From the NCBI RefSeq assembly GCF_000024025.1, contig NC_013131.1:1922001-1986000 (forward strand): a DNA stretch of 64,000 nt. The letters run 5' to 3'. Below the pieces are notes generated by a model. It saw only the letters and a list, made by a program, of their open reading frames with translations, was not told where the DNA came from and searched no databases. Of this stretch, positions 21,741-35,027 are shown piece by piece. A program made the position numbers and the translations under genes. This DNA is from Catenulispora acidiphila DSM 44928 (GTDB lineage: Bacteria > Actinomycetota > Actinomycetes > Streptomycetales > Catenulisporaceae). The first letter of the stretch is position 1; every line of letters starts with the position of its first letter.

Positions 21741-24700
21741 TCAGCCTGACGCGCCCCTGGCGACGGTCGTGGAGACCTGCCAGGGGCGCATCGTCACCTG
21801 GTGGTGGTCGTGCGCGGTGCGGATCGTCGCCGTAGTCGGTTCCGGCGTGAGAGCGACCACGCGTACTTCGGGGTCCTCGCCGCCGACGTCGCGGCAACTA
21901 CTCAGAACCACTCCGCGTCCGCCGATCTCGACGCCTCCCTTCGGGACCGCGGGGACGCTCGCCGGGTCCTGGCTGCGTCCGGCGAGGGTCGTGAACGGGT
22001 GGCGGTAGCGCTCTGCGGCGTCGAGGAGCCCTGATGTGTGCCACTCGCCGGCGTAGAGGAACAGGCCCAGCTCCACGGTGCGGACTCCACGGCATTGCGC
22101 GCCCGGTGTTGCCAACTGTGGTCCGGCGGGCTCCTCGCGCCAGGCGTTGTCGTTGCGCGAGAGCAGGCCGACGGAGCGCAGGAGGGTGAGCGCGAGGGTG
22201 CAGCCGTCGTCGACGAGTTCGTATTCGCTGACGTGGTCCAGCAGGACGGCCAAACCTCCGGCGGCGACCCAGCCGTACGCCGGGAACGTCGGCACGGGGC
22301 GCTCGCCGAAGCCGCCCTCGGCGGTCAGCGGCCGGTCCACGACGGCGAACTGCCCCTCGGCGTGCGAGTGCGTCGCCTGGCGGGGGAGCGGGAGGTGGAG
22401 GCGGACGCGGTGGTCGTCGCTGCGGTTGTCGAAGGCGATGCTGAGGCGCACGAACGGTTCGCCGAGCCGGAGCTCGAGGCGCGTGGTGATCTCGGTGGTG
22501 TGGGCGGTGTCGGCGCGGGAGCCGGCGGCGGCGTCGGCGTGGGTCGGCCAGTTGTACCAGCGCACTGATTCCAGCGACCCGGTGAGCGGACCGCTCCAGC
22601 GCACCCGGTTCCAGATCTCGTCGGGCGAATCGACGAGCCGGTCGTGCGCCGGCGGGGCGTAGTTGTACTCGTCGCCGAGGTCGCCGCCGTCCACGACCAC
22701 GCCGAGGCCCGCGGCGTGCGTGCCGTCGGCGGCGAGGACGTCCAGGAGCCCGTCGGAGCGCAGGGCGACGTGCACCAAGCCGTTGTCGAGGTCGGACAAC
22801 GCACGCCGGCCGGCAGCGATGTTCTTCATCGGCGAAGCCGGGACACTGCCGGCGGGCACCGCGGTGAGCGCGCCGAGCGCGAGCGGCCCGACATCGACGA
22901 GCGCGGCGACCGTGGCCCGCGGCTGAACGCGAACCTCGACACACCACGCCTCGACCGTCGCGCCGGCCGCGGCGGCACGCACGGAGGCGACATCGAAGAC
23001 CAGATCGGACGTCGTCGCCAGCTCGAAGTCGATGGTCGCGGCATCCGGATCGACATGCCACGCGGCGATCTGCCGACCATAAAGCTCGCGACCATGAATC
23101 TTCCGCAGAAACCGGTCGAGATCACCAGGCGCCACCACCTCGTCGGCAAAGGACTCCTCGACCGTGTCCAGCACCTGATGCAGCACCTTCTCACCAGAAG
23201 CACCCCGCAAGGCCCGCCCCGCCGGCAGCTCCAGCGTCACCACCTCAGCCCGCCGCCACGGCGACGGATTGAACAGCACCTGCCCACCATCAGGCACAGA
23301 CTCCGCAACCGCCCCCAACACCAGATCAACCACCCCGAGCCCCAGATCCCCAGCCTCAGCAATCCGCACCGCGACCTGATCAGCAGTGGCATCAACCCCG
23401 CAGCCCGTCACACTGTCATGACACGAAGAATCAACCAGCCGCCGCCACGCCAAATCCAAAAAAGGCCGACACACCGCCCCCGCCCCATAAAGCGCCGCAA
23501 CCGGCTCCGCATACCGCTCAACCACCCGCTCAGCCCGACTCAACGCCTGCTTGAGCCCCACCCGCGACGACAACACGCCAGGCAGGATGTTGGCTCGCGC
23601 ATGGGAACGCAGCTCGCCCCGGACGGTGATGGGACCACCGGAACCGGCGCCATCGATATCAGATTCAGCACCAACACCAGATCCAGCATCCGCGCCGCTG
23701 CTGCCGTGACGTTCGGCGCTACCAGCACCAGCACTGGATCCAGCACCAGCTCCAGCACCAGCACCAGCACCAGCACCAGATTCAGCATCCGCGCCGCGGG
23801 CTGCTCCACTGTCGCTGCCAAGTCCTTCGGCATTACCGGTGCCAGATCCATTTTCTGTTCTGATGTTGTTGCTGAGGCTCTCGGCTCGAGATCCAGCATC
23901 CGCGCCGCCGGCTGCCCCGATGCCGTCGCCGAGTCCTTCGCCTGCTTCGGCCGTGCCGGTGTGTGCGCCGGAACCGTTATCGGTCGCCGTATCGAAGAAC
24001 CCTGCGAGGGTGTCGAGCCGGATGCGGACCGACTCCGCGTTGCCAGAGGCGCCCGCCACCAAGTCCGCCAGCCCCTCCACCGGTGCCGAGTGGTCCGTGC
24101 CGTACATTGCCAGGAGCGGGCCCTTCGGCTGCCAGTGTCGCAGGGCCCGTGCATGCTCCTCGGCGCGCTGGCGCACCACTGCTGGGTCGGGCTCTGTGAA
24201 CACGCCTGCTGCGCCGCCGTAGCCGCCCTCGGGCAGGTAGCGCGTGCGCACTGCTGTGCCGTCCGGCGCTTGCCACCAGAACTCCGTCGTGTGCACCGCC
24301 TCCGGTACGCCGCGCCAGACGCATGCCTGCTCGATGCCCGCCAGCTGCAGGATTTGCGGTAGCTGCGCCGTGTGGCCGAACTGGTCCGGCAGGTAGCCGA
24401 TCCGCATTGCGCCGCCGAGTTCGTTCGCGCGGCGCAGGCCGATCTCCAGGTTGCGGATCAGGTTCTCGCCGGAGCACAGGAACGAGTCCGCCAACACGCG
24501 CCACGGGCCCAGCGCGAGCTGCCCGCGTGCGACCAGCTCGCGGATCAGTGCCTCTTGCTCCGGGCGGATCTCCAGGTAGTCGTCGATGGCGGCGGTCTGG
24601 CCGTCGAGGGTGAAGCGGGTGCGGGGGTCGGCGGCGAGTTGGGCCAGCAGGCGGTCCAGGACGGTCACCAGGCGGAGGCGGAAGCGCTGGAAGGGCTGGT

Positions 24701-24749
24701 ACCACTCGCGGTCCCAGTGCGTGTGGGGGACGACGACGAGTTCGTTCAT
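21741..24749 (-). CDS. Glycoside hydrolase family 38 alpha-mannosidase with a repetitive insert
   Basis: A 1002-residue retaining alpha-mannosidase with no signal peptide, so cytosolic. The zinc motif H-T-H-W-D is at residues 9-13 and the nucleophile segment P-D-Q-F-G-H-T at 121-127 (Asp122). The helical-bundle motif G-E-L-R-S-H-A-R is at 378-385, and L-P-G-V-L-S-S-R and the beta-sandwich follow. Between catalytic domain and bundle, where bacterial GH38 enzymes normally run straight into G-E-L-R, residues 256-371 are a Gly/Ala/Ser/Asp-rich repeat. It is the last gene of a nine-gene uptake operon and overlaps the dehydrogenase gene by four bases, so it probably cleaves an imported mannoside intracellularly. 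Confidence 0.9.
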   Translation of the reverse strand: MNELVVVPHTHWDREWYQPFQRFRLRLVTVLDRLLAQLAADPRTRFTLDGQTAAIDDYLEIRPEQEALIRELVARGQLALGPWRVLADSFLCSGENLIRNLEIGLRRANELGGAMRIGYLPDQFGHTAQLPQILQLAGIEQACVWRGVPEAVHTTEFWWQAPDGTAVRTRYLPEGGYGGAAGVFTEPDPAVVRQRAEEHARALRHWQPKGPLLAMYGTDHSAPVEGLADLVAGASGNAESVRIRLDTLAGFFDTATDNGSGAHTGTAEAGEGLGDGIGAAGGADAGSRAESLSNNIRTENGSGTGNAEGLGSDSGAARGADAESGAGAGAGAGAGAGSSAGAGSAERHGSSGADAGSGVGAESDIDGAGSGGPITVRGELRSHARANILPGVLSSRVGLKQALSRAERVVERYAEPVAALYGAGAVCRPFLDLAWRRLVDSSCHDSVTGCGVDATADQVAVRIAEAGDLGLGVVDLVLGAVAESVPDGGQVLFNPSPWRRAEVVTLELPAGRALRGASGEKVLHQVLDTVEESFADEVVAPGDLDRFLRKIHGRELYGRQIAAWHVDPDAATIDFELATTSDLVFDVASVRAAAAGATVEAWCVEVRVQPRATVAALVDVGPLALGALTAVPAGSVPASPMKNIAAGRRALSDLDNGLVHVALRSDGLLDVLAADGTHAAGLGVVVDGGDLGDEYNYAPPAHDRLVDSPDEIWNRVRWSGPLTGSLESVRWYNWPTHADAAAGSRADTAHTTEITTRLELRLGEPFVRLSIAFDNRSDDHRVRLHLPLPRQATHSHAEGQFAVVDRPLTAEGGFGERPVPTFPAYGWVAAGGLAVLLDHVSEYELVDDGCTLALTLLRSVGLLSRNDNAWREEPAGPQLATPGAQCRGVRTVELGLFLYAGEWHTSGLLDAAERYRHPFTTLAGRSQDPASVPAVPKGGVEIGGRGVVLSSCRDVGGEDPEVRVVALTPEPTTATIRTAHDHHQVTMRPWQVSTTVARGASG
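23637..23984. repeat. In-frame repeats inside the GH38 gene
   Basis: On the plus strand ACCAGC hexamers run together near 23720-23775. A 20-base element close to AGATCCAGCATCCGCGCCGC recurs at 23679, 23778 and 23889, spaced 99 and 111 bases, both multiples of three. The minus strand encodes repeated G-A-D-A-G-S and G-A-G-A-G-A stretches. Confidence 0.8.
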
Positions 24750-25765
24750 GCGCTCTTGCCCAGCGCGTGCAGGACTTTCAGCGCTGTGCGGACGTCGGCT
24801 GCGCCCTCGGCGGCGCCGCTCAGGGGCGGGGTGCCGGTGGTGGCGAGGGCGTGGAAGGCGAGGAGTTCGCGTTCGAAGCCGGAGTCGGCGCCGAAGAAGT
24901 AGGGGTTGGTGAAGGACAGGTCGTGGGTGCCGGCTTCGGTGTGCACGCGGACGCGTTCCTCGTATTCGGGATAGTCGGGCAGGAAGTGCCAGCGCACCGT
25001 GTAGCGGCCGTGGGGGAGCGGGCCGGAGAACTCCAGCGAGCCCGCCTCGCCGTCGCGCGCGCCCCAGGACGCCGCCGCGTCGACGTCGAGTTCGGCGACG
25101 CCCGCCAGCAGCCGGATCAGCGCCACGTCGTGGCACGCGCTGTCGAGCACCGCGCGGTACTCCCAGTGCTCGCGCGCCCCGGTGTGCTTCGGCGGCGGCG
25201 CGGCGGCCGGGGTCCAGTCCGTCGCCGGGAACCGCTCCGGGGGATGCAGGACGCTGACATCGATGTGCCGGATCGCCGCCGCGTCGAGGGCACCCAGCGC
25301 CTTGGTCACCGCCGGGTCGTACTGCTTCATGTAGCCGAGCATCAGGCGCTCGCCGGCGCCCGCCACCAGCGCCGCCTCGTCGGCGGTGTGCGCGAGCGGC
25401 TTCTCGCAGAAGACCGGATACCCGCGCTTGAGCGCCTCGACCGCCAACGACGCGTGCGACCCGGACGTCAGCAGCAGCACCGCGTCGAACTCGCCGCACC
25501 CGAACAGGCTGCGGGTGTCGGCGAAGACGCCGGAGCCGGGAACGCCGACCTGGCGCGCCACCTCGGCGGCGTACCCGGGCTGGGAATCGCAGACCGCTGT
25601 GATGCGGAAGTACTGCCCGAGTCCGGTCAGCAGCGGCAGGTGCACATGGCGCGCCACATGTCCCAGCCCGACGACCGCGACCCGCACCACAGAACCCTGA
25701 TCAGCGTCAGAGACTGGACCCGTACCAGAACCCCGACCGCCGCCAGGAAAACCGAAGCCCGCCAT
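24746..25765 (-). CDS. Gfo/Idh/MocA family NAD(P)-dependent sugar dehydrogenase
   Basis: A 339-residue oxidoreductase. After 25 poorly conserved residues comes V-A-V-V-G-L-G-H-V-A, a G-x-G-x-x-A nucleotide motif, then the conserved F-C-E-K-P-L-A-H near residue 125 and D-S-A-C-H-D-V-A-L-I near 215. Inositol 2-dehydrogenase (IolG) is a member of this family, and the family reaction is oxidation of a sugar or cyclitol hydroxyl with NAD(P). Its ATG overlaps the TIM-barrel gene's TGA by one base, and its stop overlaps the GH38 start by four, so it belongs to the mannosidase operon. Whether the substrate is inositol, mannose or an intermediate cannot be seen. Confidence 0.88.
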   Translation of the reverse strand: MAGFGFPGGGRGSGTGPVSDADQGSVVRVAVVGLGHVARHVHLPLLTGLGQYFRITAVCDSQPGYAAEVARQVGVPGSGVFADTRSLFGCGEFDAVLLLTSGSHASLAVEALKRGYPVFCEKPLAHTADEAALVAGAGERLMLGYMKQYDPAVTKALGALDAAAIRHIDVSVLHPPERFPATDWTPAAAPPPKHTGAREHWEYRAVLDSACHDVALIRLLAGVAELDVDAAASWGARDGEAGSLEFSGPLPHGRYTVRWHFLPDYPEYEERVRVHTEAGTHDLSFTNPYFFGADSGFERELLAFHALATTGTPPLSGAAEGAADVRTALKVLHALGKSA

Positions 25766-26586
25766 CAGACCCCCAACCCCGCCAGCACCGCCCGGTTGTG
25801 CCGCATGTCCGCGATGATCTGCCCCAGATCCTGCCCACGGTCCGGCACGTCCTGCTCGACCACGATCCACCCTTCGTACGCCAGCTCCCGCAACGCGTCC
25901 AAGAACGCCGCCACATCCAGCGACCCCTCGCCGAGCCGGCAGAACGTCCCGTCCGCCAGCGCGTCCTTCACGTGCACGTGCCGCACCCGGTCCCCCCACC
26001 GCTCCAGCATCGCCAGCGGATCGCCCCCGGCCGCCAGCAGATGCCCGGTGTCCAGGCACAGCTCCAGCTCCGTCAGCTCCAGCAGCCGGTCGATGTCGTC
26101 CGGGGTCTCGATGCTGGTGTCCAGATGGTGGTGGAACACCGGCTCCAGACCGTGCTCGCGGCAGCGCGAGGCGGCCCGGTACGCCTGCCGGACCAGCAGT
26201 CCCCACCCGGCGGCGTCCAACGGCCCGGACGGCGGGCAGGCCAGCGTCGGCTTCGGCGCGAAGCTGCTCATGTCCGGGTAGTGGTTGCGCGCGTGCAGCA
26301 GTCGGGCGGTGTCTTCGAGGGCTGCCAGGTCCGCGGCGAACCCGTCGTTCTGCCCGAACCTCAGGTCGTGCCAACCGCCCGCCAGCGGCAGATCGGAGTC
26401 GTCGGCGGCCAGCACCTCGTCCAGGTAGCCGTGCGGCCCGAGATCAGTACCCTCATATCCGCAGTCCACGGCGATCCGCGCGTATTCCGAGGCGCTGATG
26501 AAGGGATTCGCGGTCGAGTAGATCCCGAAGTTGACCGGGGCAGTCGCGACCTTGACCGGCCATACCGGCGCCGGCGGCTCCGTCAC
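25765..26586 (-). CDS. Sugar phosphate isomerase/epimerase (xylose isomerase-like TIM barrel)
   Basis: A 273-residue AP-endonuclease-2 / xylose-isomerase-like barrel, the fold shared by IolE (inosose dehydratase), IolI, IolH and hydroxypyruvate isomerase. Metal ligands and barrel strands are visible in G-Y-E-G-T-D-L-G, L-E-P-V-F-H-H-H-L-D, L-C-L-D-T-G-H and H-V-H-V-K-D, with a final I-V-V-E-Q-D-V. The H-H-H-L-D-T and G-T-F-C-R-L-G-E-G segments are like IolE. The GTG at 26586 overlaps the TGA of the PHP gene by four bases. With iolB divergent from the operon, an inosose or sugar-acid step is plausible. Confidence 0.85.
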   Translation of the reverse strand: MTEPPAPVWPVKVATAPVNFGIYSTANPFISASEYARIAVDCGYEGTDLGPHGYLDEVLAADDSDLPLAGGWHDLRFGQNDGFAADLAALEDTARLLHARNHYPDMSSFAPKPTLACPPSGPLDAAGWGLLVRQAYRAASRCREHGLEPVFHHHLDTSIETPDDIDRLLELTELELCLDTGHLLAAGGDPLAMLERWGDRVRHVHVKDALADGTFCRLGEGSLDVAAFLDALRELAYEGWIVVEQDVPDRGQDLGQIIADMRHNRAVLAGLGV

Positions 26587-27806
26587 GCGCACAGTGCCAC
26601 CACCTCGTTGCGCCACGTCTCCAACCGGTACATGCCCGATTGCGTCGCCGGGAACGACTGCCGTCCGGCGCCGTCCGCGCGCACCACGACCCGCGTCTCG
26701 TCCGGGCGCACCAGGATCAGCCCGTCGGCGTCCACCGCCGCGATCTCGTCGCCGCAGCGCAGCACGAGCGGTCCGGTCCGGTCGGCGGAGACCGCCGTGC
26801 GCCCCGCCGCGATGCCCGCGAGGATCGCAGAGGTCATACACTCCTCGGCCAGCACCCAGGTGATCGGCGCGCCGAGCGAGGCCGGGGTGCCGCCGGGCTC
26901 GTGGAAATCGCTGCCGCCGACCGGGATGATCGCCGCCGGATGCCGCTTCATCCAGGCCAGCGGCCAGCCCCAGGTGCGGTCGAACCAGGACCAGTGCCAG
27001 ATCTCCGCGATCGAGGGCTGCGTGGTCAGTTGGTGCCGCCAGGCGCAGTCCCCGGCCAGCGGATGGTTCACCGAGAACAGCGCGCCGGCCTTCTCCGCCT
27101 GCTTCATCCACTGCGAAGCCGGGCGCCGGAAGTCGATCCACTCCTTGGCGCCCCACACGTTCGCGTGGCCGAGGTCGGTCGTGACCTCCTGCCCCGGGAT
27201 CAGCGTGACGCCGGACGTCGCGGAATGCTTCTCCAGCAACGGGTAGTGGCTGATCGTGTTGTGGTCGGTGACGGCCAGGAAGTCCAGACCGGTCTCGGCC
27301 GCGAGCTCGGCCAGGGCGCCGACGCTCAGCGTGCCGTCGCTGTGGTCGGTGTGCGCGTGCAGGTCTCCGGCGTACCAGCGCATACCCTCGACGCCCGGCA
27401 GCTCGCGGGCCGGCGGGCGTTGCAGGGCCCTGACGCTGTGGCTGCGGTACTCCAGAGTGCGTGCCGCCCGCTTGTCGCTGAACGTGATCTCCAGCGAGTA
27501 CCGGACGCCCTCCGGCGGGACCCGGTGCAGCCCCAGCCAGACATGCCACACCCCCGGCAGGATCTCCCCGGGCAGATACCCCGGCGTCGAACGCTGGGCG
27601 CCGACCGCGAACTCCTGCCGCGCTCCGCCCGACCACCCGCGGAAGCCCTCGGGACCGGCGCAGCCGAGATCCAGGACGGCGCCGGCGGACCGGTCGTAGT
27701 CCAGCCGGACCTCGATCAGCGAGACGCCGGCCGGCACCTCGAACGGGACCGGGCGCAGCTGCTGCCGCAACCGGTCCTCCAGCCACCACACGCCGTCCAG
27801 CCGCAT
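26583..27806 (-). CDS. PHP-domain metallohydrolase, CehA/McbA type
   Basis: A 407-residue protein. The N-terminal 135 residues form a beta-rich domain that often precedes the hydrolase in this group. The PHP domain starts at W-Y-A-G-D-L-H-A-H-T-D-H-S-D-G (near 148). It continues with F-L-A-V-T-D-H-N-T, L-I-P-G-Q-E-V-T-T, F-S-V-N-H-P-L and G-G-S-D-F-H, which supply the histidines, aspartates and glutamate of a multinuclear metal centre. PHP enzymes cleave phosphoesters, and CehA/McbA relatives include carbaryl hydrolases. Inside this operon a phosphodiester or phosphomonoester bond of the imported compound is the likely target. ATG 27806 overlaps the ATPase stop by one base. Confidence 0.82.
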   Translation of the reverse strand: MRLDGVWWLEDRLRQQLRPVPFEVPAGVSLIEVRLDYDRSAGAVLDLGCAGPEGFRGWSGGARQEFAVGAQRSTPGYLPGEILPGVWHVWLGLHRVPPEGVRYSLEITFSDKRAARTLEYRSHSVRALQRPPARELPGVEGMRWYAGDLHAHTDHSDGTLSVGALAELAAETGLDFLAVTDHNTISHYPLLEKHSATSGVTLIPGQEVTTDLGHANVWGAKEWIDFRRPASQWMKQAEKAGALFSVNHPLAGDCAWRHQLTTQPSIAEIWHWSWFDRTWGWPLAWMKRHPAAIIPVGGSDFHEPGGTPASLGAPITWVLAEECMTSAILAGIAAGRTAVSADRTGPLVLRCGDEIAAVDADGLILVRPDETRVVVRADGAGRQSFPATQSGMYRLETWRNEVVALCA

Positions 27807-28900
27807 CAGCCCACCAACTCCCCATCCGCGTACAGCAGGGTCCGGTCTCTGCGGGGCAACGCCCACAGGGTGGCGCCGGGTTCCGGCTCGTCCTCCTCGG
27901 CCACCACGACCTGCACCGCGGTCCCGGCGACGTCCAGGGTGAGCAGCAGCGAGCTGCCGAGGTTCTCGGCGACCTCTACCGTGCCCCGAAACGCCCCGTC
28001 GCGCGGATCCGGCGATACGCGGAAGTACTCCGGGCGCGCGCCAAGGACCACCGCGGTGCGTTCGGCCAGTCGCTCCCCGGTCCCGTCAGGCATCGCGATC
28101 GCGGAATCTGCGACCAGAACGCGTCCGTCACGGACTACCCCCTCCAGCAGGTTCATCGGCGTGGAGCCGATGAAAGACGCCACAAACGTGTTCGCCGGCC
28201 TGCGGTACACCTGGCGCGGTGTGCCGAGCTGGCGGATCCGGCCGGACTGCATGACCGCGATGCGGTCCGCGAGCGCCAGCGCCTCGGCCTGGTCGTGCGT
28301 GACGAAGACCGTGGTGGTGGCGAGCTCGCGCTGCAGCCGCTTGAGGAACGTCCGCGCCTCCAGCCTGAGACGAGCATCAAGGTTCGACAGGGGTTCGTCA
28401 AAGAGAAAAACGGACGGCTCGGCCGCCGTGGCGCGCGCGAGCGCCACGCGCTGCTGTTGCCCGCCGGACAAAGCGCCCGGCCGCCGGTCCAGCAAGCCCG
28501 CGGTGGACTCGGTTCCGGTGAGCCCGAGTTCCGAGGCCGCGGCCAGAACCGCTTCCCGCTGCCGGGCTTTCGACACCCCGCGTACGCGCAGCGGATACGC
28601 GATGTTCTCCGAGATGGTCATGTGCGGGAAGAGCGCGTAATCCTGGAACACCATCGCCACGCCGCGCTTGCCCGGCGGCGTGCGGGTCATGTCCGCCTCG
28701 CCGATGTGGACCGCGCCGCTGTTCGGCGTCTCCAGCCCGGCCAGCGTCCGCAGCAACGTGGTCTTCCCGCAGCCGGACGGACCCAACAGCGCGAAGAACT
28801 CCCCGTCCTCGATCGTCAGGTTCAAGGCGTCTAGCGCGGTGACGCTGCCGCCGGCGTCGGCGAAGGTCTTGGTCAGATCTACGGTTCTGATTTCGGCCAC
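27806..28900 (-). CDS. Carbohydrate ABC transporter ATP-binding protein (UgpC/MsmK type)
   Basis: A 364-residue ATPase. Walker A is G-P-S-G-C-G-K-T-T (about residues 39-47), the signature is L-S-G-G-Q-Q-Q-R, Walker B is V-F-L-F-D-E-P-L-S-N-L-D, and the H-loop is V-T-H-D-Q. The 120-residue C-terminal TOBE/OB region is typical of CUT1 sugar importers and Ugp systems. It energises the two permeases encoded just upstream. GTG at 28900 follows a GGAGGAGGAG ribosome-binding site, 14 bases after the permease stop. Unlike many actinobacterial sugar operons that rely on a shared MsiK, this one carries its own ATPase. Confidence 0.93.
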   Translation of the reverse strand: MAEIRTVDLTKTFADAGGSVTALDALNLTIEDGEFFALLGPSGCGKTTLLRTLAGLETPNSGAVHIGEADMTRTPPGKRGVAMVFQDYALFPHMTISENIAYPLRVRGVSKARQREAVLAAASELGLTGTESTAGLLDRRPGALSGGQQQRVALARATAAEPSVFLFDEPLSNLDARLRLEARTFLKRLQRELATTTVFVTHDQAEALALADRIAVMQSGRIRQLGTPRQVYRRPANTFVASFIGSTPMNLLEGVVRDGRVLVADSAIAMPDGTGERLAERTAVVLGARPEYFRVSPDPRDGAFRGTVEVAENLGSSLLLTLDVAGTAVQVVVAEEDEPEPGATLWALPRRDRTLLYADGELVG

Positions 28901-28914
28901 AAGGACTCCTCCTC

Positions 28915-29745
28915 CTACCGCTTGATCCCGCCGTGGAACCGGAAACCGTAGCGATGGCTGACGAACAGGTAGAGAACGACCACCGGGATCGAGTACAACA
29001 GCGAGAAGGCCGAGATCAGCGCGAGGTTCGGCTGGCCGCCCTCGGTGTAGAAGGTGTAGAGCACCACCGACGCCGGGTACTTGTCCGGGTTCCGGACCAG
29101 AATGTACGGGATCAGGAAGTTGCTCCAGACGTTCACCACAGCCCAGACCGTCACGGTCGCCAGTCCGGGGCGGATCATCGGCAGCACGATGTGCCGCATG
29201 ATCTGGAACGGCGAGGCGCCGAACACCCGCGCCGACTCCTCGTAGGACTTCGGCGTGCCGTCGGTGAAGTCCTTGAGGATGAAGATCGCCGCCGGGATCA
29301 GGCCGCCGGTGAAGACCAGGATCACCCCGACCCGGGAGTCGATCAGGTGCAGCTTGAAGGCCAGCTGGAACAGGGGCACCATCGCCGCCGTCCCGGTCAC
29401 GATCGAGGACAGCAGGAGCAGCGTGTACAGGATGCCGTCGCGTCCCGGGACCCGCACCCGGCTCAGCGCGTACGCCGCCGCCGCTGCGAACCCCACTGTC
29501 AGCAGAGCCGTACCCCCTGCCAGCAGTAGAGAGTTCCACAGCGACGGCAGCGCATACGGATCCTTCAGCAGGACTGAGAAGTTGTGAAGAGTAAACGAGC
29601 TGATGCTCACGTCCAAGGTCGGGTGCGCGTTGAACGGCGCCGAGGCCAGCCACAGCATCGGCAGCGCGAAGAAGCCCAGCAGGACCGACAAGAACGTGTA
29701 GCGGCCGATCTTCGCCACGACCGCGCGCGGGGACGGATCCGTCAT
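28915..29745 (-). CDS. Carbohydrate ABC transporter permease (MalG/UgpE type)
   Basis: A 276-residue inner-membrane permease with six predicted helices. The EAA loop that contacts the ATPase is E-E-S-A-R-V-F-G-A-S-P-F-Q-I-M, then L-P-M-I-R-P-G-L, around residues 180-205. The N-terminal helix and the first periplasmic loop (N-S-L-L-L-A-G-G-T) match the MalG side of CUT1 systems. It pairs with the upstream permease; the genes overlap by four bases. Confidence 0.92.
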   Translation of the reverse strand: MTDPSPRAVVAKIGRYTFLSVLLGFFALPMLWLASAPFNAHPTLDVSISSFTLHNFSVLLKDPYALPSLWNSLLLAGGTALLTVGFAAAAAYALSRVRVPGRDGILYTLLLLSSIVTGTAAMVPLFQLAFKLHLIDSRVGVILVFTGGLIPAAIFILKDFTDGTPKSYEESARVFGASPFQIMRHIVLPMIRPGLATVTVWAVVNVWSNFLIPYILVRNPDKYPASVVLYTFYTEGGQPNLALISAFSLLYSIPVVVLYLFVSHRYGFRFHGGIKR

Positions 29746-30656
29746 GCCGCCACCGGCTCTCGGCGCCGTTCGCGCAGCAGCCGCAGGTACACCAGCGCCA
29801 CGATCAGGTTGATGAGCAGCATCAGCAAGGAGATCGCGGCGCCCAGGCCCATCTGCCCGTCGAACAGGGCGGTCTGGTAGATGTACACCGGCAGGATCTG
29901 CGACTTGCCGTTCGGTCCGCCGGCGGTGATCTGGTAGGGCGTGAAATCGTTGAACGTCCACAGCGAGATCAGCAGCAGGTTGGTCAGGATGTGGCCGCGG
30001 ATGTGCGGGAACACCACATCGCGCAGCTGCTGCCAGGAGTTCGCGCCGAACATCCGCGCCGTCGCCAGCTGCGAGGGCGGCACGCTGGTGAGCGCCGCGC
30101 TGTAGAGCAGCATCGAGAACGCCGTGCCGCGCCAGATGTTGAACACGATGATGACCGCCATCGGGTGCTCGATCGCCCACGCCGTGCCCGGGGTGTGCAG
30201 CAGGGCGTTCAGCGTGCCGGAGTCGCGGTCCAGCATCGCCACCCACAAGAACGCCACCACCGAACTCGGCAGGATCCAGGCCAGCAGCACCAGCGCCTCG
30301 ATGAGCCGTTTGAGCCAGCCGGTGGCGTCGCGCAGCATCCAGGCGATCGCGAAGCCCAGCGCCGCCTGGCCGACCACCGCCGAGAGCAGCACGTACTCCA
30401 GCGTCAGCCACAGCGAGTGGTGGAAGCCGGGGTCCTGGACGACGTTGGTGTAGTTCTGCAGTCCCACGCCGTGCGGATGGCGCGCGGCGAAGCCGGTCAG
30501 CCGGTAGTTGGTCGTGCCCAGATACAGGGTCCACAGCGCGGGGAAGACGAGGAACGCGGCGACGACGAGCAGGGCGGGCGCGGTGATCGCCGCCGCGCCT
30601 GCCCTGCCCAGCCCCGCCGGATCCTCAGCTGCCCGCGGCGATGCTGTCCGCGCCAA
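29742..30656 (-). CDS. Carbohydrate ABC transporter permease (MalF/UgpA type)
   Basis: A 304-residue permease with six helices and the EAA-type loop L-A-T-A-R-M-F-G-A-N-S-W-Q-Q-L near residue 215. F-N-D-F and T-A-G-G-P in the penultimate region are typical of the MalF/UgpA subunit. Start choice: TTG at 30656 has GGAGGGG six bases upstream and gives a complete N-terminus, although it overlaps the end of the binding-protein gene by 32 bases; no better in-frame start follows before the first helix. Confidence 0.9.
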   Translation of the reverse strand: MARTASPRAAEDPAGLGRAGAAAITAPALLVVAAFLVFPALWTLYLGTTNYRLTGFAARHPHGVGLQNYTNVVQDPGFHHSLWLTLEYVLLSAVVGQAALGFAIAWMLRDATGWLKRLIEALVLLAWILPSSVVAFLWVAMLDRDSGTLNALLHTPGTAWAIEHPMAVIIVFNIWRGTAFSMLLYSAALTSVPPSQLATARMFGANSWQQLRDVVFPHIRGHILTNLLLISLWTFNDFTPYQITAGGPNGKSQILPVYIYQTALFDGQMGLGAAISLLMLLINLIVALVYLRLLRERRREPVAA

Positions 30657-32055
30657 CGAGCCCCTCCAACGCCTTCTCGTAGGCCGCCGCGGCCTGCTCC
30701 GGGCTCTTGCCGCCGACCACGTCCGCGACCGCCTTCTGGACCAGGCTCGACACGTCGTTGTACGCCGCCTGCGACGGCCGGAACGCGGTGATCGGCAGCA
30801 CCTTGTCGGTGGCGAACTTCAGCATCGGGTCGTTGCCGAGCACCTGCTGGTTCACGTCGGTCCGGGCGGTGAGCAGCGGCGCGCCGCTGATCCGGGACTC
30901 GGTCTCGGTCTTGGAGTTCAGGAACGCCAGGAAGTCCCACGCCGCCTGCGGATACTTGGTCTTGGGATTGATGGACCAGTCCGAACCGCCCGAGTAGGAC
31001 ACGAAGCCCTGGCCCTTCACACCCGAGCTCGGGGTCTGCGACGGGATCAGCGCGTAGCCGACATCGGTGTCGCGGTCGGCCATCGGCGCGGTGCCGCCGG
31101 TGGGATTCAGGACCGAGCGCCACATGTAGTCGGACTCGGCGTAGATGCCGATCTTGTTCGCCGCGAACTCGGTGAAGGACTTGTCGCGGCCCTTGGCGTC
31201 CTCCTGCAACACCGGATCGCCGTAACCGCCGCCGTAGATCTTCTGGTAGAAGCCGAGCGCCGAGGTGAACGCCGTGCCGGCCTTCATCCACTTGCCGTTC
31301 GCCCACAACGAGCCGCCCGCGCCGGACAGCAGCGGCAGGAAGCCCTGCATCGTCGTGGCCTCGCCCATCGGGACGCCGCCGTCCCACTGGACCGGGGTGA
31401 CCCCTGGCAGGGTCTTGAGTTTGGCGGCCGCGTCGTAGAGGTCCTGCCAACTCGTCGGCTGCCAGTCGGCGGGCAGCCCGGCCTGCGCGAACAGCTTCTT
31501 GTTGAAGAAGATGACGCGGGCGTCGGTGCCGTTCGGGACGCCGAAACGCTTGCCCTGGTACTCGCCGAGGGCTTGGACGGCTTGGGTGATCTGCGACCAG
31601 CCGTCCCAGCTGTCGACCTGGGCTCCGGCCACCTGATTCAGCGGCTTGACATAGCCGGCGTCGGCGAACTCGCCGACCCAGATGCCGTCCAGGGAGAAGA
31701 CGTCGTCGCCGGTGCCGGACTGCAGGTCCAGGGCGAGCTTGGACTTGTAGGCGTTGTCGTCCACGCCGTTGGGCCGGAAGGTGACGTGGGCGGTGATCCC
31801 CTTGGCCGCCTCGGCTTTCACGAAGTCCGGGATCAGCGTCTTCTGGATCCAGTTCGCCTCGTTGCTGTTCTTCCCGCCCGCGATGTCGTTGGCGGTGATC
31901 ACCAGCGTGGGGTTCTTCGGCTGGTCGGCGGAGTTCACGGCGGCCGGCTTGGAACCGGAGGAGGAACTGGAGCAGCCGGCGACGAGGGCGGCGACGGCCG
32001 CGCCGACCGCTATCAGGGTTCGAAGGTTTCCGGACCGTGCGGAATGTGCTCCCAT
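30625..32055 (-). CDS. Extracellular sugar-binding lipoprotein of an ABC importer
   Basis: A 476-residue family 1 solute-binding protein. The signal peptide ends in the lipobox V-A-G-C at about residues 25-28, so it is tethered to the outer face of the membrane, followed by a Ser-rich linker. The two-lobed body (T-L-V-I-T-A-N-D, then G-V-P-N-G-T-D-A-R-V-I-F-F-N-K-K-L-F and S-G-G-S-D-W-S-I) is typical of oligosaccharide- and glycerophosphodiester-binding proteins. Many tryptophans and tyrosines suit a glycoside ligand. It heads the transport part of the operon, 37 bases after the GntR gene. Confidence 0.92.
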   Translation of the reverse strand: MGAHSARSGNLRTLIAVGAAVAALVAGCSSSSSGSKPAAVNSADQPKNPTLVITANDIAGGKNSNEANWIQKTLIPDFVKAEAAKGITAHVTFRPNGVDDNAYKSKLALDLQSGTGDDVFSLDGIWVGEFADAGYVKPLNQVAGAQVDSWDGWSQITQAVQALGEYQGKRFGVPNGTDARVIFFNKKLFAQAGLPADWQPTSWQDLYDAAAKLKTLPGVTPVQWDGGVPMGEATTMQGFLPLLSGAGGSLWANGKWMKAGTAFTSALGFYQKIYGGGYGDPVLQEDAKGRDKSFTEFAANKIGIYAESDYMWRSVLNPTGGTAPMADRDTDVGYALIPSQTPSSGVKGQGFVSYSGGSDWSINPKTKYPQAAWDFLAFLNSKTETESRISGAPLLTARTDVNQQVLGNDPMLKFATDKVLPITAFRPSQAAYNDVSSLVQKAVADVVGGKSPEQAAAAYEKALEGLVGADSIAAGS

Positions 32056-32092
32056 CGGTGCCTCCGCGGGTGTCAGTGCTACCCAGTGCTTG

Positions 32093-32833
32093 TCAGTGCT
32101 CTGTGACGGTGACTTCCAGGCTGTACCGGGACGCGCGGTAGATGTGGCTGCCGAACTCCACCGCCCGCCCGCTGTCGTCGAAGGCCGTGCGCTCCATGGT
32201 CAGCAGGGCCGCGCCGCGCCGTTCCTCCAGCAGCGCCGCCTGTTCGGCGTCGGCGGTGCACGCGCCGATCCGCTGCCGGGCCACGCAGATGCGGATCCCC
32301 GCCTTGCGCAGCACCTCGTACAGTCCCCGGGTCTCCAGCAGCTCCGCGCTCAGCGCCGGCACCGGCTCGGGCAGCCAGTTGCGCATCACCGCCAGCGGTT
32401 CGCCCTGCGAGCGGCGCAGCCGCACCACCTTGGTCACCGGCGTACCGGCCGGCAGCCCGAGCGCCGTGGCGGCCTCCGGCTCGGCCGGGACGCGCGCCAG
32501 CAGCAGCACGTCGGTGGCCGGCGCGCGCCCGCTGCGGGCCAGGTCGTCGTGCAGGCTGGTGAGCTCCATCTCCCGGCGCACCGGCATCGGCAGGATCTGC
32601 GTGCCCACGCCGCGCCGGCGCACGATCATGCCGCGGTCCACCAGATGCCCGATCGCCTGCCGCACGGTCGGCCGGGACAGCCCGAGCGACTCGGCGATCT
32701 GCACCTCGGAGTCCAGCTGGTCGCCGGGCTGGAGCGCGCCGGTGCGGATCGCCTCGGCGATCTGCTCGGCGACCTGGAAGTAGAGCGGGATCGGGGAGGA
32801 GCGGTCCACCTCGATCCGCGGTCGGATCCCCAT
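32093..32833 (-). CDS. GntR-family regulator (HutC subfamily), first gene of the uptake operon
   Basis: A 246-residue repressor. The winged helix occupies about residues 8-75 (I-P-L-Y-F-Q-V-A-E-Q-I, L-D-S-E-V-Q-I-A-E-S-L-G-L-S-R-P-T-V-R). The C-terminal UTRA ligand domain ends G-S-H-I-Y-R-A-S-R-Y, the usual HutC signature. ATG 32833 lies only seven bases after a -10 box, implying a leaderless message. A perfect palindrome sits between this promoter and that of iolB, so the protein probably controls both directions, with a sugar or cyclitol derivative as inducer. Confidence 0.88.
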   Translation of the reverse strand: MGIRPRIEVDRSSPIPLYFQVAEQIAEAIRTGALQPGDQLDSEVQIAESLGLSRPTVRQAIGHLVDRGMIVRRRGVGTQILPMPVRREMELTSLHDDLARSGRAPATDVLLLARVPAEPEAATALGLPAGTPVTKVVRLRRSQGEPLAVMRNWLPEPVPALSAELLETRGLYEVLRKAGIRICVARQRIGACTADAEQAALLEERRGAALLTMERTAFDDSGRAVEFGSHIYRASRYSLEVTVTEH

Positions 32834-32840
32834 GGGGGTC

Positions 32841-32869
32841 AGTATGCTGCGGTCACTATGTCCGGACAA
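32841..32869 (-). promoter_or_regulatory. Promoter of the GntR-ABC-mannosidase operon
   Basis: On the minus strand TTGTCC (32869-32864), 17 bases and CATACT (32846-32841) form a good vegetative promoter. A start site about seven bases further falls on the GntR ATG itself. Confidence 0.6.
32859..32868. promoter_or_regulatory. Palindrome between the divergent promoters, likely GntR operator
   Basis: TGTCCGGACA is a perfect 10-base palindrome that overlaps the -35 box of the GntR promoter and lies just upstream of the iolB promoter, a natural place for one repressor to control both directions. Confidence 0.5.
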
Positions 32870-32873
32870 CAGG

Positions 32874-32902
32874 TTGACCGGGGAACCCCGTACTGCTATG
32901 CA
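32874..32902 (+). promoter_or_regulatory. Promoter of iolB
   Basis: TTGACC (32874-32879), a 17-base spacer and TATGCA (32897-32902) precede the iolB ribosome-binding site by about ten bases. Confidence 0.5.
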
Positions 32903-32918
32903 GCAATCGGGAGGCGGT

Positions 32919-33689
32919 ATGACACAGGTCGACATCACGCCCGAATCGGCAGGCTGGCGCTTTGCGGGACTGAAGACCGCGGAGTTCGCCGGTTCATATC
33001 AGTTCTTTACCGCAGGAGATGAGGCTTTAGTCCTGCCGTTGTCCGGTTCGTGCCGAGTCCGGTGCGGCGCCGAGGAGTTCCAGTTGGCGGGGCGCAAGGA
33101 CGTCTTCGCAGGTCCCAGCGACTTCGCCTACATCCCGCGGGGCAGCGCCGTCCGGCTGACCGCGACCGACGGCCCGTGCCGGGTGGCGATCCCGACCGCG
33201 CGGGCGGAAACCGATCTGCCGTTCCGGTACGGCGCGCGCGAGGCGGTTCCGGTGGAGCAGCGCGGCGCCGGATCCTCCGCGCGGACGCTGCACAACTTCT
33301 GCGCCCCGGAAGCCTTCGAGACCGACCGGCTGCTGGCGGTGGAGGTGATCACGCCGGGCGGGAACTGGTCGTCCTGGCCGCCGCACAAGCACGACGAGGA
33401 CGTCGAAGGCGGCGAGCGTGCCAAGGAGGAGATCTACTACTACGAAGGCGGACCGGGCTACCAGCGCGTCTACTCTTCGGCAGCCGGGGAGATCGACGTG
33501 CTGCGCGAGGTCAACGCCGGGGACGTGGTGCTGATCCCGTACGGCTACCACGGTCCGTCGATGGCGATGCCGGGCTACGACCTGTACTACCTGAATGTGC
33601 TGGCCGGCGGGGACCGCGGAGCGGGACGCTCCATGGCGTTCAGCGACGATCCGCGGCACGCATGGGTACGGCAGACCTGGAGCGCCTGA
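32919..33689 (+). CDS. iolB: 5-deoxy-glucuronate isomerase (IolB)
   Basis: A 256-residue bicupin that converts 5-deoxy-D-glucuronate to 5-dehydro-2-deoxy-D-gluconate in myo-inositol catabolism. Hallmarks are N-W-S-S-W-P-P-H-K-H-D (near residue 150), E-E-I-Y-Y-Y, and V-V-L-I-P-Y-G-Y-H-G-P-S, carrying the metal-binding histidines and glutamate, then G-Y-D-L-Y-Y-L-N-V-L-A-G. It is slightly shorter than typical IolB (about 270). ATG 32919 follows GGGAGG by five bases. No other iol gene of the standard set is next to it; the divergent operon carries IolE- and IolG-like folds instead. Confidence 0.95.
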   Translation: MTQVDITPESAGWRFAGLKTAEFAGSYQFFTAGDEALVLPLSGSCRVRCGAEEFQLAGRKDVFAGPSDFAYIPRGSAVRLTATDGPCRVAIPTARAETDLPFRYGAREAVPVEQRGAGSSARTLHNFCAPEAFETDRLLAVEVITPGGNWSSWPPHKHDEDVEGGERAKEEIYYYEGGPGYQRVYSSAAGEIDVLREVNAGDVVLIPYGYHGPSMAMPGYDLYYLNVLAGGDRGAGRSMAFSDDPRHAWVRQTWSA

Positions 33690-33732: not shown

Positions 33733-34086
33733 TCAGATGATGCGGATCTCGTCGTTCGAGTGGTCGTGGCCGCAGTTGTCGCCCTCGTAGTGGTAGTCGC
33801 GGCGGTTCAGCTGCACCACCCGGAAGGACTTCTGCTCCACGATGCGCTGCAGGTGCCGGACGCCGCTGGCGCCGGCGGCCACCACCGCGACGATCGCGGC
33901 GAGCACGGTGATGCCGATCACGGCGAAACCGCCGGTCACGTTCCCGAACACGATCATGAACAGCGCGACCAGGATCGAGATCGGCACCGCTACCAGGAGC
34001 AGTACCGCGATCGTGGTGAGCAGGATCAGCGGCTTCGCCGACGGTGCGCGGTCACCGTCGTGGCGGATCGTCGTTCTCATGGCCAT
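33733..34086 (-). CDS. Small membrane protein with cytosolic His/Asp-rich tail
   Basis: A 117-residue protein with two hydrophobic helices (P-L-I-L-L-T-T-I-A-V-L-L-L-V-A-V and F-A-V-I-G-I-T-V-L-A-A-I-V-A-V) after a basic N-terminus, then a soluble end containing Y-H-Y-E-G-D-N-C-G-H-D-H-S-N-D-E. The Cys/His/Asp cluster could bind metal. I do not recognise a family. It starts at 34086 behind a GAGAGGGA and is divergent from the methyltransferase gene. Confidence 0.6.
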   Translation of the reverse strand: MAMRTTIRHDGDRAPSAKPLILLTTIAVLLLVAVPISILVALFMIVFGNVTGGFAVIGITVLAAIVAVVAAGASGVRHLQRIVEQKSFRVVQLNRRDYHYEGDNCGHDHSNDEIRII

Positions 34087-34205
34087 GGGCTAGTCCCTCT
34101 CGGCTGCGGCCTCAAAGACGCGTTGTATCGCGTTTAAAGAGTATCAACAAGGAGGGCGCCTCCGCTTGTTCCTTTTCCCAGTGCCGAATCCGTCACACTG
34201 GTGAG

Positions 34206-35027
34206 GTGATCTCCGAAGTCGTCAACTGGTTGTCCTGCCCGCATTGTGCCACTGCGTTGATCGTCGAGGCTTCTTCCGGGCTGCGGTTGTTGTGTGAGGA
34301 AGGGCACGCTTTCGACGTGGCGCGGTATGGCTACGTCTCATTGCTCCCTGGCGCGGGAGCAGCGGATACGGCCGATACCGCGGCGATGGTCGCTGAGCGT
34401 GACGCGTTCCTGGGAGCAGGTCACTATGCCGGGATTGCCGATCTCGTTACGGAACTCGCCGCCGATGCTGTGGCCGATGACGGCGTCGTTCTGGATCTCG
34501 GCGCGGGCACCGGCTACTACCTCGCGCAGGTTCTGGAAGCCGTGGACCGCCCCGGCATCGCACTGGACATCTCCAAGCACGCCGCACGCCTCGCCGCCCG
34601 AGCGCACCCGCGCATCGGCGCCGTCGTCGCCGACGCCTGGTCCGGGCTGCCGGTGCGCGGCCGGGCCGCCTCGGTGCTGCTGAACGTCTTCGCGCCGCGC
34701 AATCCGCGGGAGATGCGGCGCGTGCTACACCCTGACGGTCGGGCGATCGTCGTGGTGCCGGAGCCGGACCATTTCAGGGAGCTGATCGCCGAGTACGGCC
34801 TGATGGCCGTGGACGACCGCAAGCCGGAGCGGTTGCGCGAGCAGTTCGGGGACCGGTTCCGGGTCGAGTCCGAGCATCCCTACGAAACGACGCTCGCTTT
34901 GTCCGCTCCTGAGGTTTCGCAAATTATCGGCATGGGACCGAACGCCTGGCACGAGCGCGCGGGGGAGGTCCGATCGGGCGGCGCGGTGACGGTCGCCGTC
35001 CGCGCCTACGTTCTGTCCCAGATGTGA
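34206..35027 (+). CDS. 23S rRNA (guanine-N1)-methyltransferase, RlmA family
   Basis: A 273-residue SAM-dependent methyltransferase. The N-terminal zinc ribbon is C-P-H-C (residues 11-14) with L-L-C-E-E-G-H-A-F-D (about 28-37). The SAM fold follows with L-D-L-G-A-G-T-G-Y-Y near 100 and A-L-D-I-S-K-H-A-A. This matches RlmA(I)/RlmA(II), which methylate G745 or G748 in helix 35 of 23S rRNA; the latter (TlrB) gives tylosin resistance. Which base is modified here cannot be told. GTG 34206 has no upstream Shine-Dalgarno and may be leaderless. Confidence 0.85.
   Translation: MISEVVNWLSCPHCATALIVEASSGLRLLCEEGHAFDVARYGYVSLLPGAGAADTADTAAMVAERDAFLGAGHYAGIADLVTELAADAVADDGVVLDLGAGTGYYLAQVLEAVDRPGIALDISKHAARLAARAHPRIGAVVADAWSGLPVRGRAASVLLNVFAPRNPREMRRVLHPDGRAIVVVPEPDHFRELIAEYGLMAVDDRKPERLREQFGDRFRVESEHPYETTLALSAPEVSQIIGMGPNAWHERAGEVRSGGAVTVAVRAYVLSQM

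Follow-up and report, generated by a model that had tools for sequence, protein, structure and literature searches.

An operon divergent from iolB in Catenulispora acidiphila is a candidate system for the uptake and breakdown of an inositol glycoside

INTRODUCTION

Discussions of inositol catabolism usually concern the use of free inositol for growth, with phytate as a major source. Here, we describe a locus of Catenulispora acidiphila in which an operon of nine genes, encoding a GntR regulator, the parts of an ATP-binding cassette (ABC) transporter, a PHP-domain hydrolase, an IolE-like TIM barrel, a Gfo/Idh dehydrogenase, and a glycosidase of family GH38, lies next to a divergent iolB. The locus is part of a 64,000-nucleotide stretch (i.e., the window; positions 1,922,001 to 1,986,000 on one contig of 10,467,782 bases). 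We propose, with a probability of roughly 60%, that this operon serves to import an inositol glycoside (alpha-mannosyl-myo-inositol being the likeliest) and feeds the freed inositol to the iol route.

Parts of this locus resemble described systems. Its likeness to the iol clusters consists of iolB, of the iolC, Cgl0159, iolB, and iolD genes that adjoin the operon in relatives, and of the IolE-like and IolG-like proteins encoded inside it, but the operon adds an oligosaccharide-type transporter, a PHP hydrolase, and a GH38 enzyme. The mannosylglycerate hydrolase MngB is likewise a cytosolic GH38 enzyme within a catabolic operon, and its model (PRK09819) is the curated model closest to the GH38 of the locus. 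However, an assignment to MngB was rejected, since the score of 338.8 bits is far under the equivalog cutoff of 1138; the MngB system uses a phosphotransferase system, whereas the operon has an ABC transporter and adjoining inositol genes. Glycerophosphodiester uptake by the Ugp system involves UgpABCE together with a phosphodiesterase. The transporter parts of the operon score with Ugp models and are followed by a hydrolase of possible phosphoester activity, but the scores stay below the Ugp cutoffs, the hydrolase has a PHP fold, the operon has no GDPD phosphodiesterase, and GH38 and inositol enzymes are added. With the CehA/McbA proteins, the PHP hydrolase shares a score over the domain cutoff and invariant motif residues; the named members cut carbamate pesticides, whereas the branch found here sits in sugar/inositol operons. 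The open-licence PubMed Central literature searched held no description of such a gene set or pathway, in agreement with an earlier interpretation made from the DNA alone (here called the sequence-only reading), which knew of none. The string "mannosid" is absent from the main text of the IolCatGC survey of myo-inositol clusters (PMC9430895).

RESULTS

A single iolB and a distant iol cluster

The IolB model (TIGR04378) finds one place in the whole genome, i.e., the iolB of the window, which scores above the equivalog cutoff (Table 1). An iol cluster at 5.11 Mb, 3.16 Mb from the window, contains iolG (281 bits), an iolE-like gene (153 bits), iolD (941 bits), a Cgl0159-family gene, a binding protein nearest the rhizopine model, and an iolC-like frame that was recognized by eye and is unscored. 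Neither IolB nor a GntR of the window kind was found in the 19-kb stretch of this cluster. Because the window holds the sole iolB of the genome and the 5.11-Mb cluster is without one, inositol catabolism in C. acidiphila probably needs this gene, independently of the role of the operon. Two other explanations for its position were considered: that of a spare copy kept for the operon was rejected, since no other IolB match exists in the genome, and that of a chance neighbor is not favored, since the pairing is seen again alongside complete iol operons and together with shared sites. From the set of iolB, iolC, iolD, and iolE, the window locus has only iolB and the IolE-like gene; in many genomes of Nonomuraea and Micromonospora, the complete set adjoins the operon.

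Linkage to iol genes in relatives

Using a PHP profile, we fetched 80 loci (the best 80 of 532 confirmed candidates), for which all counts rest on tblastn bit thresholds and contig content; some contigs end near the operon. At 27 of the 80 loci, iolB, iolD, or Cgl0159 was present in the fetched stretch (within 10 kb), and GH38 was present at every one of these 27 (18 from Nonomuraea, 6 from Micromonospora, 1 from Bailinhaonella, and 2 of the Catenulispora type). Over the whole set, GH38 and iolB were found at 66 and 25 loci, respectively. The usual plan in Nonomuraea and Micromonospora has iolD-iolB-Cgl0159-iolC leftward and binding protein-permease 1-permease 2-ATPase-PHP-TIM barrel-dehydrogenase-GH38 rightward, with GntR at the head of the rightward operon in Micromonospora; the iolC of this plan was scored at one locus (367 bits). 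The Catenulispora locus, which has only iolB on its left side, may be what is left of this plan. Loci from the same genus do not count as independent; iol linkage requires at least nine changes on a quick tree of the PHP proteins (86 rows). We consider the inositol link strong for the types found in Catenulispora, Nonomuraea, and Micromonospora and only tentative for the remaining copies.

Control sites shared with the iol cluster

The 85-base region between GntR and iolB and the promoter of the distant iolG have ATGTCnnnACAnnnnGTTGACCGG in common. When up to two mismatches are allowed, this pattern occurs at these two places only in the genome, and the reversed pattern occurs at none. The pattern was derived from its own two sites; hence, two further tests were made. 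In the own-genome background, equally good matches (17 of 24) to any portion of the 85-base region were counted at 40 of 238,818 positions, so that about 0.02 matches are expected in the iolG stretch; this match being only moderate when taken alone, the test was extended to the genus. When 10 Catenulispora genomes were searched, the shorter form TGTCnnnACAnnnnGTTGACC was matched exactly 18 times: 9 matches lie between GntR and iolB, 9 lie just upstream of iolG, and none lie elsewhere; the reversed control gave 0. In two of the 10 genomes, one site of the pair is missing, and the genomes are close kin, so conservation of the element is partly shared descent. By sequence, the locus and the iol cluster have a control site in common, as would be expected of an inositol regulon. 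Both the shared control of iolB and the tie to inositol catabolism suggested in the sequence-only reading are supported, by these sites and by the recurrence of the operon next to entire iol clusters in other genera.

A palindrome of the form TGTCNNGACA was found in the divergent region of all 24 iol-linked loci examined (the 27 linked loci other than L096, L133, and L148), with 39 sites in 33.9 kb of divergent DNA versus 7 in 462 kb. Two sites are present in the divergent region at 15 of the 17 Nonomuraea loci examined. The palindrome is present in 10 of 17 further stretches that contain iol genes and absent from 7, one of which is the iol cluster of C. acidiphila. The window GntR is 64 to 66% identical to the GntRs of six Micromonospora loci and 47 to 63% identical to GntRs in the stretches fetched for iolB, iolG, or iolE from other genomes; GntRs of 53 to 56% identity adjoin a transporter operon without iol genes at L112, L147, and L169. 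We infer that an IolR-like GntR acts on the shared sites. A scan of positions 32780 to 32960 for promoters and terminators found none. The only other operator-form match in the window is the TGTCATGACA palindrome at positions 23414 to 23423, inside the GH38 coding region.

TIM barrel and dehydrogenase

The operon TIM barrel falls short of the IolE equivalog cutoff (TIGR04379; Table 1), as do the iolE-like gene of the 5.11-Mb cluster and all matches in 10 further genomes; since all IolE matches there fail, this cutoff tells little for these lineages. IolE is the best match of the TIM barrel in both libraries, and the common IolE motifs are kept. In 4 of the 10 genomes (N. maritima, M. globbae, Micromonospora sp. 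U21, and Hamadaea sp.), no place other than the operon TIM barrel, matched by coordinates (137.5 to 142.8 bits), scored above 50 bits with the IolE model. It is also the best IolE match in N. jabiensis (139.3, with the second at 118), and the remaining genomes have IolE matches outside the operon. No IolG match reached 100 bits in M. globbae, Micromonospora sp. U21, or Hamadaea; N. maritima has a 250-bit IolG outside the operon. Because the TIM barrel is the sole IolE match in four genomes, three of which have no IolG match of at least 100 bits, the TIM barrel and dehydrogenase probably act on inositol itself rather than being mere extras, and IolE appears to come from the operon in some hosts, perhaps together with the dehydrogenase. 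The TIM barrels of the window and of its Catenulispora kin L093 are without a loop of about 18 residues that is present in IolE and in the TIM barrels of other genera; given the missing loop and the retention of a separate IolE, the role of this protein in Catenulispora may have drifted.

The dehydrogenase likewise falls short of the IolG equivalog cutoff (TIGR04380), matching in its N-terminal half only, versus 281 bits for the iolG of the 5.11-Mb cluster. In Pfam, the Rossmann domain alone was matched, and the best solved match is DgpA (58 bits). On the strength of that match, the dehydrogenase and TIM barrel could constitute a 3-keto-glycoside system, which would cleave a glycoside without GH38 and for which inositol would be one possible leaving group. 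We regard this as very improbable, considering the best match of the TIM barrel to IolE in both libraries, its IolE motifs, and the availability of GH38 for glycoside cleavage.

GH38 and the mannose moiety

The GH38 protein scores far above the Pfam N-terminal domain cutoff of 25 bits (Table 1), and mannose is likely to be part of the substrate on the ground of this family membership. A Gly/Ala/Ser-rich insert of about 116 residues (window positions 23628 to 23975) lies between two conserved halves of the protein; its length differs among Catenulispora species, and there is almost none in the Nonomuraea, Micromonospora, Actinomadura, and Hamadaea copies examined. Four more GH38 genes occur in the same genome, at contig positions 1806410, 2563325, 1530109, and 5755670.

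The operon could instead degrade another alpha-mannoside (N-glycan or mannan fragments, or mannosylglycerate), with iol adjacency a matter of regulation or history and not of substrate. The nearest model being that of mannosylglycerate hydrolase, the 39 GH38 loci without an iol gene in the fetched stretch, and the absence of the operator from the readable Actinomadura loci (see below) all point that way. We nonetheless hold this explanation to be decidedly unlikely: it is countered by the control element common to the iolB/GntR and iolG sites across the 10 Catenulispora genomes, by the iol linkage in Nonomuraea, Micromonospora, Bailinhaonella, and Catenulispora, by the IolE-like enzyme within the operon, and by a score so far from the MngB cutoff.

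PHP hydrolase, transporter, and the phosphate moiety

The PHP hydrolase passes the CehA/McbA test (NF038032) with its motif residues conserved. Residues H150, H152, D157, H182, E207, H248, D300, and H302 are invariant in 36 sequences, and the enzyme is therefore probably active. Among proteins of solved structure, a predicted phosphoesterase is closest to it (3e38; 50 bits). A phosphate in the substrate is plausible from the PHP protein. The operon has a transporter of the oligosaccharide/Ugp type, in contrast to the iol cluster, whose binding protein is of the rhizopine type.

High scores with Ugp models, under the cutoff, were obtained for permease 1 and the ATPase, as would suit a system whose main substrate is glycerophosphoinositol (i.e., deacylated phosphatidylinositol). 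Import would then be Ugp-like, PHP would cut the phosphodiester, and GH38 would merely extend the range to mannosylated forms. In two Streptomyces-type genomes of the same taxonomic order, the transporter and PHP occur with GntR, iolG-like, iolE-like, Cgl0159, iolB, and iolD genes (PHP being about 10 kb from the ATPase in one of them), and no GH38 was found in 40 kb at either copy. A locus of a Pseudonocardiales metagenome-assembled genome (MAG), L158 (2114 to 12906), has, after the transporter and PHP, another ABC system together with a phosphatase of the Inositol_P family. However, that phosphatase scores better as a histidinol-phosphatase (128.7) than as an inositol monophosphatase (107.7), both under the cutoff; CehA/McbA enzymes are not necessarily phosphoesterases; and GH38 is present at most of the 80 loci and at all of those linked to iol genes. 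Glycerophosphoinositol as the main substrate thus seems unlikely. The ATPase of the second ABC system of L158 is nearest the aminoethylphosphonate model.

Observations at variance with an inositol glycoside substrate

The following points weigh against the import of an inositol glycoside. The substrate is a prediction from gene content. Many copies are without the TIM barrel or the dehydrogenase, which were found at 34 and 47 of the 80 loci, respectively; 17 loci have the transporter, PHP, and GH38 only, and 10 more add the dehydrogenase with no TIM barrel. GH38 is present at all iol-linked loci, but at 39 of the 66 loci that bear GH38 the fetched stretch contains no iol gene, some of the contigs being cut short. 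To these must be added the Streptomyces-type copies that lie beside iol genes without GH38, and 14 Actinomadura copies with no adjacent iol gene. Neither transporter nor GH38 was matched beside PHP at eight loci from MAGs (L151, L153, L157, L162, L163, L164, L166, and L168) that lie on a deep branch of the PHP tree; this branch possibly has another function, and Pfam revealed no sugar or inositol genes among four neighbor genes of L151. As for control, beyond the moderate own-genome match, the iolG site of C. acidiphila reads TGTCATAACA and departs from the strict palindrome. The operator precedes the binding protein in only 9 of 37 readable non-linked loci (of 53, 14 gave no match for the binding protein and 2 were truncated at the start), where 10 sites were counted in 15.2 kb before the binding protein versus 5 in 738 kb elsewhere, and it was present in 0 of 12 readable Actinomadura loci. 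One Actinomadura genome has iolG with the palindrome elsewhere.

Gene layout

The nine minus-strand genes of the sequence-only reading were confirmed by frames and family models (positions 21741 to 32833), all of them unbroken and with GH38 last. Its divergent iolB, also unbroken, proved to be a true one across a gap of 85 bases, and its span of 21741 to 33689 was correct. The description "tightly overlapping" was nearly right: six of the eight junctions overlap (by 1, 1, 4, 4, 4, and 32 bases, the last only if permease 1 starts at TTG), and gaps of 37 and 14 bases separate GntR from the binding protein and permease 2 from the ATPase, respectively. Beyond iolB, at window positions 34044 to 35027, lies a gene for an RlmA/ChrB-like 23S rRNA methyltransferase (under curated cutoffs), the position of which is kept in the genus.

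Table 1. Features of the locus, in window coordinates
Feature	Positions	Strand	Evidence
GH38 alpha-mannosidase, 1002 aa, ATG start at 24749, low-complexity insert	21741..24749	-	Pfam Glyco_hydro_38N, 128.6 bits; PRK09819, 338.8 bits (cutoff 1138); solved GH38 relatives
Gfo/Idh dehydrogenase, 339 aa, later start possible	24746..25765	-	PF01408; IolG model, 63 bits (cutoff 355)
IolE-like TIM barrel, 273 aa, GTG start	25765..26586	-	TIGR04379, 113 bits (cutoff 290); best solved matches are two IolE proteins
PHP hydrolase, CehA/McbA kind, 407 aa	26583..27806	-	NF038032, 136 bits (domain cutoff 80); invariant motif residues
ABC transporter ATPase, UgpC/MalK-like	27806..28900	-	Family models
ABC permease 2, BPD_transp_1	28915..29745	-	Family models
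ABC permease 1, BPD_transp_1, TTG start uncertain	29742..30656	-	Frame list; family models
Sugar-type SBP_bac_1 binding protein	30625..32055	-	Pfam and solved matches
GntR/UTRA regulator, IolR-like by neighborhood	32093..32833	-	Pfam and GntR comparison
Divergent control region, 85 bases	32834..32918	.	Gap between GntR and iolB
Composite control element ATGTCCGGACAACAGGTTGACCGG, containing palindrome TGTCCGGACA	32858..32881	+	Shared-site searches
iolB, 5-deoxy-glucuronate isomerase, 256 aa	32919..33689	+	TIGR04378, 261.8 bits (cutoff 205); sole genome match

DISCUSSION

The import of an inositol glycoside that feeds the iol pathway is well supported by the comparisons above, and alpha-mannosyl-inositol, perhaps phosphorylated, would be the simplest reading that uses all genes. 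For the mannosyl-inositol (phosphate) named in the sequence-only reading, the inositol tie and the shared control of iolB thus held up; the mannose depends on the GH38 family assignment, and the phosphate is no more than plausible. A candidate compound would be a lipid headgroup, perhaps still phosphorylated, from phosphatidylinositol mannosides or fungal mannosyl-inositol lipids. After uptake by the sugar-type ABC transporter, the PHP hydrolase would take off a phosphate or another ester, and the cytosolic GH38 would take off the mannose. The dehydrogenase and the IolE-like enzyme would work on the freed inositol, alone or beside ordinary IolG and IolE, and IolD, IolB, and IolC would complete the route. 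An IolR-like GntR at TGTCNNGACA-type sites may place iolB, the operon, and the iol cluster at 5.11 Mb under joint control.

Phosphatidylinositol and its mannosides are listed among the dominant polar lipids of C. acidiphila (PMC3035231). A more specific and tentative proposal, which we consider doubtful, is that mycelial actinobacteria have here a salvage pathway for the headgroups of phosphatidylinositol mannosides (i.e., deacylated forms and glycerophospho-inositol mannosides). In such a pathway, the headgroup would enter through the transporter, PHP would be a new inositol phosphodiesterase, GH38 would be a mannosyl-inositol hydrolase, and the IolR-type GntR would tie the operon to inositol catabolism; a membrane lipid of the organism itself, its kin, or other soil actinobacteria would become a source of carbon and phosphate.

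If an inositol glycoside is indeed the substrate, glyco-inositol compounds would be a carbon source in their own right, used through a conserved glycosidase and transporter arm under iol control. A function would be suggested for a branch of the CehA/McbA-type PHP proteins and for a branch of GH38, and the prediction is a sharp one: one regulator, one operator, and one ligand class. The locus would also offer a simple route to asking how the headgroups of phosphatidylinositol mannosides are recycled in soil.

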